Assembly: GCF_025149465.1 (NCBI RefSeq)
Contig: NZ_CP102275.1
Coordinates: 806,001-870,000 of the forward strand
Source of the DNA: Thomasclavelia spiroformis DSM 1552
GTDB lineage: Bacteria; Bacillota_I; Bacilli_A; Erysipelotrichales; Coprobacillaceae
DNA: 64,000 bases
Direction: 5' to 3'
The position numbers and the translations under genes are program-made. The notes below the pieces were generated by a model that saw only the letters and a program-made list of their open reading frames with translations, was not told the origin of the DNA and searched no databases. How positions within the stretch are numbered: the first letter of the stretch is position 1; every line of letters starts with the position of its first letter. Of this stretch, positions 56,889 through 62,509 are shown in pieces.

Positions 56889-56930
56889 AAATGAAAAAAC
56901 GATATAAATCATTAATCATGATTTATATCG
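56889..56930 (-). terminator. Terminator of murD
   Basis: CGATATAAATC (56900-56910) and GATTTATATCG (56920-56930) form an 11-bp stem containing the murD stop in its loop; on the minus strand TTTTTTCATTT follows. The SEDS gene downstream therefore needs its own promoter or read-through. Confidence 0.75.
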
Positions 56931-58270
56931 TCTAAAGAGCAAACAATTTCTTTAAATACATTACCACGTTGTTCATAACCGCTAAATTCATCGAAGCTAC
57001 TTGTCGATGGTGATAGTAAAACAATATCACCAGCTGTAGCGTTATTGATTGCTTCTAATGTAGCTTCTTTTAAGTTTTTAACACAAATACTATTTTCAAC
57101 ATGCATTTCATCTTTAAAACGTTTACCAGCGGCTCCAAATGTTACTAAACGTTTTATTTTATTACTGTAAGTAGACATTTCTTTTAGATCTAGGCCTTTA
57201 TCAAAACCACCCATTAATAAAATAACTGGTTGTTTAAATGCTTTTAAAGCAATGATACTAGCATCAGTGTTAGTAGCTTTTGAATCATTATATATTTTAA
57301 TCCCATTTATTTCTTTAACAAATTCGATTCGATGTTCAACACCAATAAATGAAGCAATTTCTTGATTAATTATTTCATTTTTCACATCACATTTTTTAGC
57401 AATACAAATTGCAATCATTATATTTTGTAAATTATGATTACCAACTAATTTAATATCATCAAGATCAATAATAAATTCATTTTGATAATAAATAGCTTTA
57501 TCTTTAATCATGCAATCAGCTTGATTATCTAATGACATCGTAATTTGTTTACAAGGAATAGGATATTGTTTTAAATATTTGTCTAAAACTTGATCATCTA
57601 AATTTACTACAAAACAATCATTTTTATTAGTGTTTTTATAAATATTGGTTTTTGAAGCATAGTATTCATCTAATGAAGCCATGTAGTCTAAATGGTCAGG
57701 TGTTAAGTTAATGATTGTTGAAACATTTGGTTTAAATGTATCAATGTCAAGTAATTGAAAATTACTCATTTCAATAACAATATAATGATTTTCTTCTTCT
57801 AATAAATTATGATCTAAAACAATATCACATAGTGGCATACCAACATTACCAGCTAAATGAACATTTTGATATTGTCCTTTTAAGATCTTATCAATTAATG
57901 TAACAGTAGTTGTTTTACCATTAGTTCCTGTAACCCCAATATAATGTTGTTTTTTAGCTACTTGATAAGCAAGTTCTATTTCTGTATATACTGGGATATT
58001 TCTTTTTTTTAATCTTAAAATAAATGGTTTATGATAATTGATTCCAGGATTTTTTATTACAAAATCAAAATCACGTTCAAATAATTCATCAGGATGACCA
58101 CCAGTAATCATTTCAATTCCATCATCAAGATATTGTTGATATTCAGGAATTTTACTAGCTTCTTGAAATTCATTAATAGTAATTGTTGCATTAAGCTTTT
58201 TAAGTAAGCGAACTGCAGCTTTACCACTTTTAGCTAAACCAATAACTAATACTTTTTTACCTGTTAACAT
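56912..58270 (-). CDS. murD: UDP-N-acetylmuramoyl-L-alanine--D-glutamate ligase
   Basis: MurD adds D-Glu to UDP-MurNAc-L-Ala in the cytoplasm. An N-terminal Rossmann-like domain (VLVIGLAKSGKAAVRLL), the ATP-binding P-loop GVTGTNGKTTT (about 110), the central NLTPDHLDYM and the C-terminal domain with HRIEFV, YNDSKATN and LLMGGFDKG are seen. Length 452 aa. The ATG at 58270 with GGAGTG upstream is preferred to 58291; it lies 1 nt after the mraY stop. Confidence 0.95.
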   Translation of the reverse strand: MLTGKKVLVIGLAKSGKAAVRLLKKLNATITINEFQEASKIPEYQQYLDDGIEMITGGHPDELFERDFDFVIKNPGINYHKPFILRLKKRNIPVYTEIELAYQVAKKQHYIGVTGTNGKTTTVTLIDKILKGQYQNVHLAGNVGMPLCDIVLDHNLLEEENHYIVIEMSNFQLLDIDTFKPNVSTIINLTPDHLDYMASLDEYYASKTNIYKNTNKNDCFVVNLDDQVLDKYLKQYPIPCKQITMSLDNQADCMIKDKAIYYQNEFIIDLDDIKLVGNHNLQNIMIAICIAKKCDVKNEIINQEIASFIGVEHRIEFVKEINGIKIYNDSKATNTDASIIALKAFKQPVILLMGGFDKGLDLKEMSTYSNKIKRLVTFGAAGKRFKDEMHVENSICVKNLKEATLEAINNATAGDIVLLSPSTSSFDEFSGYEQRGNVFKEIVCSLDDINHD

Positions 58271-58271
58271 T

Positions 58272-59261
58272 TTATAACACTCCAATAACAATTGCTAAAA
58301 TACCACAAATAAAACCAATAAACCAAAAAGAAATAGTAACTTGTTGTTCAGACCAACCTAACATTTCAAAATGATGGTGAATCGGTGCCATTTTAAATAC
58401 ACGTTTACCACGTAATTTAAATGAAGTAACTTGGATAATAACTGATAATGTTTCCATTAAGAAAACCCCACCAACTAAAATCAATAATAACTCTTGTTTA
58501 GTAAGAATTGCTAAAACTGCTAAAAAACCACCTAAACCAAGTGATCCTACGTCACCCATAAAAATCTTAGCTGGATGATAGTTAAACATCATAAATCCAA
58601 GTAAAGCACCGACCATTGCAGTAGCATAACTAGCTAAAACATAATCTTTAGTCATAATTGAAAAGATAATAAATGGTGCAATTGCAATCATTGAAAGTCC
58701 AGTAGCAAGTCCATCTAATCCATCAGATAAGTTAACACCATTACTTTCACCTGCAAACATAATTAATATTAAGAATGGGTATAAGTATTTAAAATCAATA
58801 CTTATATCAACTAGTGGAATTGTTACTACTGATGTAAAACCAGGAATAAAATTCATGGCGTAAAAATAACAAATAATCGCTAAAGCTATTTGTGCTAATA
58901 ATTTAGCTAATGGTGGTAATCCTTTATTACTATGCTTTACAATAATTAAAGCATCATCAATTAAGCCAATTAAACTATAACCAACTAAAACAATTGTGGT
59001 TAAAATTAGTTCTGGATTAAATATATTTTTGATATCAAAAACAAGTGTACTAATAGCAGTACCTAAAATTGCAGCTAAAACAAAAACAATACCTCCCATT
59101 GTCGGTGTTCCGTTTTTAACCTTATGTGATGCTAATCCTTCTTCACGTTCAACTTGGCCAAATTTCATTTTATGTAGAAACGGGATTACTCTAGGCATAG
59201 CTATTAAAACTAAGACGAATCCTACACCAAAAGCAAAGATCAATTTTAAAAAGTTTTCCAT
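58272..59261 (-). CDS. mraY: Phospho-N-acetylmuramoyl-pentapeptide-transferase
   Basis: MraY makes lipid I from UDP-MurNAc-pentapeptide and undecaprenyl phosphate in the membrane. 329 aa with ten membrane helices; GTPTMGGIVF, the active-site region NGVNLSDGLDGLATG, MGDVGSLGLGG and the MAPIHHHFE motif are present. AAAGGGGTT precedes the ATG. It is the first gene of a minus-strand unit with murD and has a good promoter. Confidence 0.95.
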   Translation of the reverse strand: MENFLKLIFAFGVGFVLVLIAMPRVIPFLHKMKFGQVEREEGLASHKVKNGTPTMGGIVFVLAAILGTAISTLVFDIKNIFNPELILTTIVLVGYSLIGLIDDALIIVKHSNKGLPPLAKLLAQIALAIICYFYAMNFIPGFTSVVTIPLVDISIDFKYLYPFLILIMFAGESNGVNLSDGLDGLATGLSMIAIAPFIIFSIMTKDYVLASYATAMVGALLGFMMFNYHPAKIFMGDVGSLGLGGFLAVLAILTKQELLLILVGGVFLMETLSVIIQVTSFKLRGKRVFKMAPIHHHFEMLGWSEQQVTISFWFIGFICGILAIVIGVL

Positions 59262-59321: not shown

Positions 59322-59341
59322 AATAAAAGGGACGAAGTCCC
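59322..59341 (-). terminator. Terminator of the HPr-like gene
   Basis: GGGAC (59329-59333) and GTCCC (59337-59341) form a short GC-rich stem; on the minus strand TTTTATTTT follows. Confidence 0.65.
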
Positions 59342-59356
59342 AATTATTCGACATAT

Positions 59357-59626
59357 TTATTGACAAATACCTAATTCTTTCAATAATTCAGCTGCCTTTT
59401 TAATAGCTGCATCTTCATCTTCACCCTCAGCAATAATTTCAATTGTTGCTTTAGTAGGAATCCCCAAAGATAAAACCCCCATTAAAGATTTTAAATTAAC
59501 TGTTTTTGAAGAATAAATTAATTTAATATCAGATTTAAAAAGTTTCATTGTATCGACTAGTTTTGTTGCGGGTGTTGCATAAAGACCTACAGGATCAATT
59601 ATGGTAGCATTTATTCGTTTTGCCAT
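59357..59626 (-). CDS. HPr-like protein without the catalytic histidine (Crh-like)
   Basis: 89 aa with the full HPr fold pattern. In HPr the PEP-dependent phosphorylation site is His15 in GxHARPA; here the segment reads GLYATPA, so Tyr replaces His and Thr replaces Arg. The regulatory serine site (Ser46 in HPr) is kept: NLKSLMGVLSLG. This is the residue pattern of Bacillus Crh, which has Gln at position 15 and acts only as a Ser-phosphorylated CcpA co-regulator. A carbon-regulation role is inferred from that. AAAGGAGGTAG precedes the ATG, and TGCTATAAT lies upstream, so it is well expressed. Confidence 0.9.
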   Translation of the reverse strand: MAKRINATIIDPVGLYATPATKLVDTMKLFKSDIKLIYSSKTVNLKSLMGVLSLGIPTKATIEIIAEGEDEDAAIKKAAELLKELGICQ

Positions 59627-59653
59627 TTTATCTACCTCCTTTGTGTTACTTTA

Positions 59654-59662
59654 ATTATAGCA
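59654..59662 (-). promoter_or_regulatory. Extended -10 of the HPr-like gene
   Basis: TGCTATAAT on the minus strand (59654-59662). A weak TGCATA -35 lies 16 bp upstream. Confidence 0.5.
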
Positions 59663-59889: not shown

Positions 59890-59991
59890 GTGAATAAAAA
59901 AATAGTCAATGTTTTCAATAGTGAAATGAATGTTTTTATTGGTATACATAAATCAACATCAAAATTTTTTTATTTAATTAACAAATTATGA
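59890..59991 (+). CDS. Short leader ORF coupled to the NusG paralog
   Basis: A 33-codon frame (GTG start; an in-frame ATG at 59881 would add three residues) with GGGATGAGG upstream. It is basic and aromatic (NKKIVNVFNS, KSTSKFFYLINKL) and unrecognised. Its TGA overlaps the ATG of the next gene (ATGA), a common coupling arrangement, so it may serve to bring ribosomes to a gene that otherwise lacks a Shine-Dalgarno sequence. It could also be a chance frame. Confidence 0.4.
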   Translation: MNKKIVNVFNSEMNVFIGIHKSTSKFFYLINKL

Positions 59992-60479
59992 ACTGGTATG
60001 TTTTATATGTTCTTTCTTATAAAAAAGAACAGTTAATTAAATATTTAAATAAATATGAAGATGTTGAAGCATTTGTACCTAAATACGAATATTATCGAAG
60101 AGTTACTAAAGATTATGAGATTAAACCAATGTTTAATGGCTATATCTTTGTAAAGTCAACAATGAATCAATTGGAATTTAATTCATTGTTGATGAAAATG
60201 TCTAAGGAAAAAGATGGATTATTAAAACAACTTGTTTATCCTGATACTTCTGCGTTAAAAAAAGAAGAGATTGAGATGTTTGATAGGTTGTTGGATGAAA
60301 ATTATGTTGTAAAGATGTCCCAAGCGTATTTACAAGATAAAAGAGCAATTATTATTAATGGTCCGTTAAAATATTTTGAAAATGATATTCGTAAGGTTGA
60401 TAAGTACAATAAAGTAGCTTATTTGAATTTATTGTTTATGAATCGAGAGATAAAAGCAGGTTTAGAAATTATTAAGTAA
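59988..60479 (+). CDS. NusG-paralog antiterminator (LoaP/RfaH/UpxY-like)
   Basis: 163 aa. It starts WYVLYVLSYKKEQLIKYL and continues through FVPKYEYYRR, MFNGYIFVKS (the NGN-domain core) to a C-terminal KOW-like part (about 105-163: IINGPLKYFENDIRKVDKYNKVA). Specialised NusG paralogs travel with RNA polymerase and promote read-through of terminators in long polysaccharide or antibiotic operons. Position supports this: it is followed by a leader with terminators and then a polysaccharide-biosynthesis gene. No good Shine-Dalgarno sequence precedes the ATG; the short upstream ORF overlaps it. Confidence 0.85.
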   Translation: MNWYVLYVLSYKKEQLIKYLNKYEDVEAFVPKYEYYRRVTKDYEIKPMFNGYIFVKSTMNQLEFNSLLMKMSKEKDGLLKQLVYPDTSALKKEEIEMFDRLLDENYVVKMSQAYLQDKRAIIINGPLKYFENDIRKVDKYNKVAYLNLLFMNREIKAGLEIIK

Positions 60480-60613: not shown

Positions 60614-62509
60614 GTGTGCCACGCATGACATAAGACTAGGTGGTGAAAGTCCACTGTGGGGGTTTCGTACTACCAACCACTAGCCGAAGACAAGGTATCC
60701 ATCGTAAGGTGTGAACGGGAGGAAGTTGGAGGCAAAGTCCTGACCCAAGGAATACGAACTATTTTAGGCAGAAGCTTATCGGATGAGATTGCTAAACAAA
60801 TCGAAGTCCAATAGTACGACGGAATAAGCAGTGTAAAGATAGTGGGTACATAGGATGAAAGTGTTATGTCTTACCGTGGGAGGTCCTAGGAACATGATGA
60901 AAATGTAATCATGGTGGAAACGTTTGTCCTAGGAAGTCAGCCGAGGTCATAGTAGTGATGATGATAACTGTAATGGTTATCTAGCGAAGGACCGAACATA
61001 AGGAGGTGAACTGGAAATGAAAGATACTCAAGATAAAATAGGATACTGTCAACTATCATTAGGCTTACTCTATGAAGATAGTACGGAATACGACAATAGT
61101 GGAGAAGTGTATCCTACATCAAAACAAGAGATATCACATACGAAGAACACCAATAGATTTGTAGTACATGAGAAGTTACTTGAAACAATTATGGAGGATG
61201 CCAATATAGAAAAGGCAATCCAAAGGGTTATGAGTAATAAGGGAAGTGGTGGTGTAGATAAAATGCAAGTCGCAGAAGTTCGTACGCATTTCGCACAACA
61301 CTGGTCTTATCTAAAGAAACTTATCATGGAGGGACATTATAGTCCACAAGCCGTTAAAAGAGTAGAAATACCAAAAGATAACGGAAAGAAAAGAGAGTTA
61401 GGAATTCCAACAGTGACGGATAGGGTCATACAACAGGCGATAGTACAGGTACTGACACCAATATTTGAACCCCAATTCAGTGACAATAGTTATGGGTTCC
61501 GACCAAGAAGAAATGCCCATCAAGCAGTAAGAAAAGTAGTCGAATACGCCAATGAAGGATATCGATATACAGTAGACCTAGATTTAGAGAAGTACTTTGA
61601 TACAGTCAACCATTCAAGACTTATACAGATATTGTCACAAACTATTAAAGACGGAAGAGTTATATCACTCATACATAAATATCTCAATGCAGGAGTCATA
61701 GTAAAACATAAGTTTGAAGAAACTACAAAAGGAGTACCCCAAGGTGGGCCACTCAGCCCATTATTATCAAATATATATCTTAATGAATTTGATAAAGAAA
61801 TGGAAAGAAGAGGAAATCGATTTGTAAGGTACGCAGATGACTGTGTCATACTATTCAAAAGTAAAAGAAGTGCAATGAGAGTCAAAGAAACAGTGACAAG
61901 ATATTTAGAAGAGAAATTATTTGTAAAAGTGAACCAAGAGAAGACAAAGGTAGCCTATATTACTGATATAAAATTCTTGGGCTTTGGATTTTATATAGAG
62001 AAGAGTGGTAATGTACGAATCACTGTTCACAAGAAATCTAAAGAAAAGATGAAAAAGAGAATAAAGGAAATCACCAAAAGGAACCGACCAATATCAAGTA
62101 AGGAATTAGCTAAAGAGTTAAAAGAATACATTACAGGTTGGGTGAATTACTATAGGATAGCGAATATGAGTAAACATCTAAGGGAAATAGACTCATGGAT
62201 GAGAAGAAGAATACGAATGATATATTGGAAAAGATGGAAGTTAGTAAGAACAAGGTATAGAAATTTACAAAAACTAGGTATTAATAAAAGTAAGGCATGG
62301 GAATGGGCAAACACAAGAAAAAGCTACTGGCACATCGCCAATAGCTTCATACTAAAAAGGACACTTACAAATGAAGTATTAAAAATATACGGATTTATAA
62401 GTGCACTAGATTATTACAACTCTATAAACTTATGAAACGCCGTGTAGGGAACCCTACGCACGGTGTTGTGAAAGGGGCGAAAGATTTTAATTCTTAGCCC
62501 CTATTCAAT
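60614..62509 (+). mobile_element. Group IIC intron, copy 3
   Basis: 1896 nt from GTGTGCC to TTCAAT, matching copy 2 line by line as far as I can read, with the maturase ORF at 61017-62435 and a domain V-like hairpin at about 62436-62467. It sits between the second leader terminator and the first polysaccharide gene, so that gene's transcript would carry the intron unless it splices. Confidence 0.9.
61017..62435 (+). CDS. ltrA: Group II intron reverse transcriptase/maturase, copy 3
   Basis: 472 aa, identical to the other two copies. RT motif RYADD, class-C maturase C-terminus, no endonuclease domain; AAGGAGGTGAAC before the ATG. Confidence 0.96.
   Translation: MKDTQDKIGYCQLSLGLLYEDSTEYDNSGEVYPTSKQEISHTKNTNRFVVHEKLLETIMEDANIEKAIQRVMSNKGSGGVDKMQVAEVRTHFAQHWSYLKKLIMEGHYSPQAVKRVEIPKDNGKKRELGIPTVTDRVIQQAIVQVLTPIFEPQFSDNSYGFRPRRNAHQAVRKVVEYANEGYRYTVDLDLEKYFDTVNHSRLIQILSQTIKDGRVISLIHKYLNAGVIVKHKFEETTKGVPQGGPLSPLLSNIYLNEFDKEMERRGNRFVRYADDCVILFKSKRSAMRVKETVTRYLEEKLFVKVNQEKTKVAYITDIKFLGFGFYIEKSGNVRITVHKKSKEKMKKRIKEITKRNRPISSKELAKELKEYITGWVNYYRIANMSKHLREIDSWMRRRIRMIYWKRWKLVRTRYRNLQKLGINKSKAWEWANTRKSYWHIANSFILKRTLTNEVLKIYGFISALDYYNSINL

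Follow-up and report, generated by a model that had tools for sequence, protein, structure and literature searches.

The window analysed is a 64,000-nucleotide stretch of the Thomasclavelia spiroformis DSM 1552 genome (contig NZ_CP102275.1). The gene of interest lies on its minus strand (59626-59357), with an ATG at 59626 and a stop codon ending at 59357. Its 89-residue product, which we call HPr-Y, is an HPr domain (Pfam search, PF00381, 84.6 bits; cut-off 23) with the motif DPVGLYATPAT...NLKSLMG. Residues 16, 18 and 47 of the ORF (Tyr, Thr, Ser) correspond to HPr positions 15, 17 and 46, and HPr numbering is used below. The Tyr15 codon occupies 59579..59581, that of Thr17, at a variable position held by Arg in ordinary HPr, 59573..59575, and that of Ser46, the presumed HprK target, 59486..59488, all on the minus strand.

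On the same strand an extended -10 promoter-like site, TGCTATAAT, of the pattern TGnTATAAT, lies at 59654..59662 and, by sequence reading, a Shine-Dalgarno-like AGGAGG at 59635..59640. Beyond the stop codon a hairpin resembling an intrinsic terminator, GGGACTTCGTCCC and then TTTTATTTT (59329..59341, minus strand), separates the gene from mraY (58272..59261, minus strand; TIGR00445, 315.9 bits), which starts 95 bases past the HPr-Y stop and is followed by murD (56912..58291, minus strand; TIGR01087, 384.6 bits). Upstream and divergent from HPr-Y in the window is a gene for a LoaP-like antiterminator (59988-60479, plus strand; NF033641, 101 bits, below the cut-off of 125), where several sister species have mnmM. 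Further along is a group II intron (60698-62435, plus strand; Rfam RF02001, RF01998), the ORF of which encodes a reverse transcriptase/maturase (TIGR04416, 439 bits).

The AlphaFold model of HPr-Y has a mean pLDDT of 95.7 and superposition on HPr gives a TM score of 0.96 and an RMSD of 0.6. The RMSD is 0.6-0.7 Å against HPr in complex with CcpA (2fep, 1rzr) and against B. subtilis HPr in complex with HprK (1kkl). The features of a PTS phosphocarrier are absent, Tyr15 and Thr17 standing in place of His15 and Arg17, and HPr-Y scores 89.7 of the 110 bits needed for the phosphocarrier-HPr equivalog NF010352. The preliminary description of this locus had proposed a genuine HPr paralog in which Tyr replaces the phospho-His while Ser46 and the fold are kept, and the ORF, the Pfam match, the model and an alignment of 34 family members all bear this out.

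Exactly two proteins of the T. spiroformis genome match PF00381 over the cut-off. The second is the product of the ordinary ptsH that the same description had suggested looking for (G000:C1:1889483-1889716), carrying the motif GLHARPAT and KSIMG, with His15, Arg17 and Ser46. HPr-Y and this protein share 55% sequence identity. Both forms, Tyr15 and ordinary, are present in all nine genomes of the genus.

A Tyr form was also to be sought in related species, and is widespread in the family Coprobacillaceae. The closest named relative of HPr-Y, with 78% identity, is in Thomasclavelia cocleata. The 43 family genomes hold 100 PF00381 places, of which 61 were fetched and read; ordinary HPrs and long fusions make up most of the remainder. 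Among the 61 are 34 Tyr15 forms, never more than one to a genome, so that a Tyr15 form is carried by 34 of the 43 genomes and represented in 15 of the 20 genera. A DNA pattern combining Gly-hydrophobic-Tyr with Lys45-Ser46 at the correct spacing recovered the same 34 genomes. Scanned across the order, this pattern gave no Tyr15 HPr in the 272 other genomes; matches in 20 of these were judged from the bases and none reads as HPr. A stricter pattern applied to a 392-genome phylum sample, which represents one class only and carries no information on Bacillus or Clostridia, matched 13 of 16 family genomes and none of the other 376. Among 21 loci from named genomes, residue 15 was read in 20 (all but L043), giving two Tyr (T. 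cocleata, L023, and L029), 17 His and one Glu. A base error at the Tyr codon is excluded by the presence of both forms in nine of nine genus genomes, by the Tyr form in 34 of 43 family genomes and by the use of two Tyr codons. In the literature searched, which lay mostly outside subscription journals, we found no account of a Tyr15 HPr or of HPr paralogs of Coprobacillaceae.

HPr-Y is missing from nine family genomes (G016, 69% complete; G019; G026; G028, 82%; G029-G032; G038). Seven of the nine are at least 93% complete, and the gene is therefore dispensable.

Ten positions are invariant in all 34 Tyr forms (15, 43, 45, 46, 48, 52, 53, 54, 56 and 59), among them Tyr15, Lys45, Ser46, Met48, Ser52, Leu53, Gly54, Pro56 and Ala59, and the region 43-59 is close to that of ordinary HPr. 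Tyr15 is encoded by TAT in 30 members and TAC in four. Ser46 is encoded by TCN in 22 and AGY in 12; since a switch between these codon sets requires two base changes, it is serine itself that is held at this position. Lys occupies position 27 in 29 of 34 Tyr forms and Ser in 11 of 12 ordinary HPrs. The Thr for Arg17 to which attention had been drawn is present in the window gene but is no fixed feature, as six residues occur there over the 34 members (Thr 23, Ser four, Ala two, Lys two, Gly two and Arg one). With residue 15 invariant and residue 17 varying, it follows that the latter became free after phosphotransfer was lost and the former did not. The retention of Tyr as Tyr argues that residue 15 probably takes part in a partner interface and is not the outcome of random loss.

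Could Tyr15 itself be phosphorylated? A tyrosine kinase might act on this residue, with phospho-Tyr replacing phospho-His as a second input, and such a role would suit a Tyr that is invariant in 34 of 34 at an active-site position when another non-phosphorylatable residue would do for loss of function. The literature searched yielded no such case for an HPr, however, and we regard this explanation as quite improbable. The loss of the catalytic His might alternatively mark HPr-Y as a decaying or misread copy of ptsH with no function. We give this next to no credence. The median dN/dS for HPr-Y is 0.113 (36 pairs from nine species of the genus), neither Tyr15 nor Ser46 changes in any of the 34 members, and a promoter-like site and a terminator-like hairpin of its own flank the gene; the pseudogene reading is contradicted by this conservation.

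The signals flanking the gene recur across the family. In 30 of the 34 HPr-Y loci a TGnTATAAT site precedes the start codon by 20-60 bases (shuffle mean 0.16), and in 28 a terminator-like hairpin follows the stop codon at a distance of up to about 115 bases (base shuffles expect 0.42). On account of these two features HPr-Y is most likely its own transcription unit, with changing neighbours and a strong-looking extended -10 promoter. The neighbours, named from model matches on cluster representatives, do change. Directly upstream lies mnmM in 13 of the 34 loci and an unnamed ORF of 118-129 residues in seven. Downstream, mraY and murD occur in 17 loci, from four of the 15 genera, and a gene of the nrdD cluster in ten, nine of which also list one of the nrdG cluster. 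The remaining seven comprise two with a HAD hydrolase gene, of a cluster also seen in the nrdD loci, and five with other genes.

This pattern bears on the earlier suggestion that HPr-Y, from a conserved position beside mraY, couples carbon status to the synthesis of cell-wall precursors through mraY-murD. The short distance to mraY in the window and the 17 loci with mraY and murD downstream are in keeping with it. However, that arrangement is confined to four genera, nrdD takes the place of mraY in ten loci, a terminator-like hairpin follows the HPr-Y gene in all 17 mraY loci and ORFs on the opposite strand intervene in two of them. Given also its own promoter-like site, we reject a cell-wall operon on synteny, terminators and promoter, place mraY outside the HPr-Y unit and hold the functional link to be very improbable. 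The contact with mraY is most likely a matter of position only.

We turn to the partners that could read Ser46. HprK scores over the cut-off in 42 of the 43 family genomes, the exception being a genome that is 72% complete; the T. spiroformis enzyme (TIGR00679, 359 bits) is encoded beside lgt. The CcpA model TIGR01481 has a single match in T. spiroformis, at 265 bits against an equivalog cut-off of 442, and at E<=1e-90 it matches no protein in any of the 43 genomes, 42 of them with HprK. The CcpA of Coprobacillaceae thus seems divergent. Nevertheless no other model comes near ccpA for this protein (265 bits, the next 144) and all six listed matches to solved structures are CcpA, some under an older name. 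The gene has a YtxH-like protein gene and a murC-like fragment as neighbours, presumably a setting similar to that of ccpA in B. subtilis. The protein retains a YD-GA--RLLTK stretch, which by our own reading holds the arginine that contacts phosphorylated Ser46; Arg304 of CcpA is reported to be such a contact (PMC4591507). Because HprK and a CcpA-like protein are both encoded, this genome, as judged from sequence, has the circuit that a P-Ser signal needs, with a divergent receiver.

Crh is the textbook example of a signalling HPr that is not a phosphate carrier. Bacillus Crh and HPr-Y are alike in possessing the HPr fold, lacking His15, keeping Ser46 and coexisting with an ordinary HPr, HprK and CcpA or a CcpA-like protein. 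As a functional analogy the Crh precedent, invoked when the locus was first described, is therefore the right one: His15 is absent, Ser46 is intact and an ordinary ptsH is in the same genome. Identity with Crh is another matter. Residue 15 is Gln in Crh and Tyr in 34 of 34 HPr-Y proteins, in which Arg17 is usually lost as well. The neighbours of HPr-Y are mnmM, mraY, nrdD or others, whereas the Crh operon is reported to include glmR and whiA (PMC10714963). HPr-Y is nearer to HPr than to Crh (best PDB match to HPr 71.5 bits, to Crh 48.8) and reaches 58.8 of the 123 bits required by NF010354/PRK13782, which we take to be the Crh model. Residue 15, the model score, the gene neighbourhood and sequence similarity all lead us to reject HPr-Y as a Crh. 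It is likely that it has a Crh-like role, as a regulatory HPr readable by HprK and silent in the PTS.

Ordinary Bacillota HPr, the ptsH product, shares the fold and the Ser46 loop with HPr-Y. HPr-Y differs in its lack of His15, in not keeping Arg17, in Lys27 and in evolving faster. With all columns included, a tree groups the 34 Tyr rows with a single His row (95/85). This row (L066, from G026) is an HPr on a long branch, with His at position 15 and Asn at 17, and falls inside the Tyr group. The Tyr group and the family's ordinary HPrs come together (97/87), apart from other HPrs. When columns 15 and 17 were masked and the long or odd rows O_L077, G_L039 and G_L034 dropped, the Tyr forms did not come out as a single clade (4 changes), although such a clade is not rejected by the masked data (AU p 0.26); the joint group of Tyr forms and family HPrs was again obtained (96/96). 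What is claimed from these trees, which took in the ordinary HPrs of 12 of the 43 family genomes and had no Crh among their rows, is one group made up of Tyr forms and family HPrs, not a single origin of the Tyr forms. Because the protein is short, it is fair to say no more than that ptsH was duplicated once or a few times, in the ancestor of Coprobacillaceae or close to it, to give HPr-Y.

How might such a protein work? By the known chemistry of HPr, Tyr is unable to form its phospho-imidazole and for that reason HPr-Y would take no phosphate from Enzyme I and pass none to the sugar permeases. HprK would phosphorylate Ser46 when fructose 1,6-bisphosphate (FBP) and ATP are high, and PTS flux through His15 would not limit this phosphorylation as it does in HPr. 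The level of Ser46-P on HPr-Y would then reflect metabolic state whatever the PTS flux, and P-Ser-HPr-Y would most likely act on the divergent CcpA-like protein as a second corepressor, as Crh does in Bacillus. We consider it rather probable that HPr-Y is a duplicate of ptsH, in a transcription unit of its own, that acts as a signalling-only, PTS-silent HPr read by HprK, with its P-Ser form serving as that second corepressor; the anatomy, conservation and distribution of HPr-Y and the occurrence of HprK and a CcpA-like protein are observed, and from this conservation and these partners we infer phosphorylation, CcpA binding and the role of Tyr15. There is precedent in the Bacillus literature, where Crh is described as signalling in its P-Ser form via HprK and CcpA (PMC13130090, PMC9631020) and, in Geobacillus kaustophilus, ribose repression is reportedly mediated by Crh and not by HPr (PMC13130090).

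The same source describes inhibition of the methylglyoxal synthase MgsA by unphosphorylated Crh (PMC13130090). By analogy HPr-Y might mainly regulate a metabolic enzyme through direct binding, with phosphorylation of Ser46 switching that binding off. A match to MgsA is found in 19 of the 34 genomes with HPr-Y and in none of the nine without (Fisher p 0.0025, kinship ignored). Yet 15 of the 34, some of them near-complete, have no match, so MgsA is rejected as the sole target of HPr-Y. Direct binding of an enzyme as the main role is in our estimation unlikely, though less so than the alternatives weighed above.

The preferred reading, a signalling-only HPr read by HprK, means that Coprobacillaceae, which are common gut bacteria, appear to have reached the Crh arrangement separately, with an invariant Tyr for His. 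It makes a more general question testable: does carbon catabolite control repeatedly evolve a signal carrier that is not coupled to the uptake of sugars? It also opens the question of what job residue 15 performs once phosphate is no longer carried. A bolder proposal, which we offer tentatively and with less confidence, is that a regulatory HPr silent in the PTS was invented here a second time, independently. The family would have split HPr into a Ser46-only signal (HPr-Y) and, in a subset of its members, a carrier with His15 only, from which Ser46 has been lost, together with a fusion of an HPr domain to a D-2-hydroxyacid dehydrogenase; Tyr15 would be a selected contact that sets partner choice on the divergent CcpA or on another target.

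Other His-less and Ser-less HPrs were encountered. An HPr-like protein of Sporanaerobium hydrogeniformans (L033:4001-4213) resembles HPr-Y in having an HPr domain with Ser46 kept and His15 lost; it differs in having Glu15 and in keeping Arg17, and is distant. Within Coprobacillaceae, seven paralogs (L046, L063, L064, L065, L073, L075 and L077) are the mirror image of HPr-Y, with His15 retained and Lys replacing Ser46. The one whose surroundings were checked, L063, follows a gene for a sucrose/beta-glucoside-type PTS EIIBCA, itself preceded by an alpha-amylase-like gene. Set beside HPr-Y, these paralogs look like a sharing-out of the two jobs of HPr.

An HPr-like domain with His15 kept and Ser46 lost is also found fused to a D-2-hydroxyacid dehydrogenase (L082:4995-6300, plus strand; L079; and others), an architecture for which nothing was found in the literature searched. 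Open frames of the size of the fusion, 432-461 residues with an HPr match, are present in 16 of the 43 family genomes and six were read; for one fusion the Pfam assignment is PF00381 with PF02826 and PF00389.
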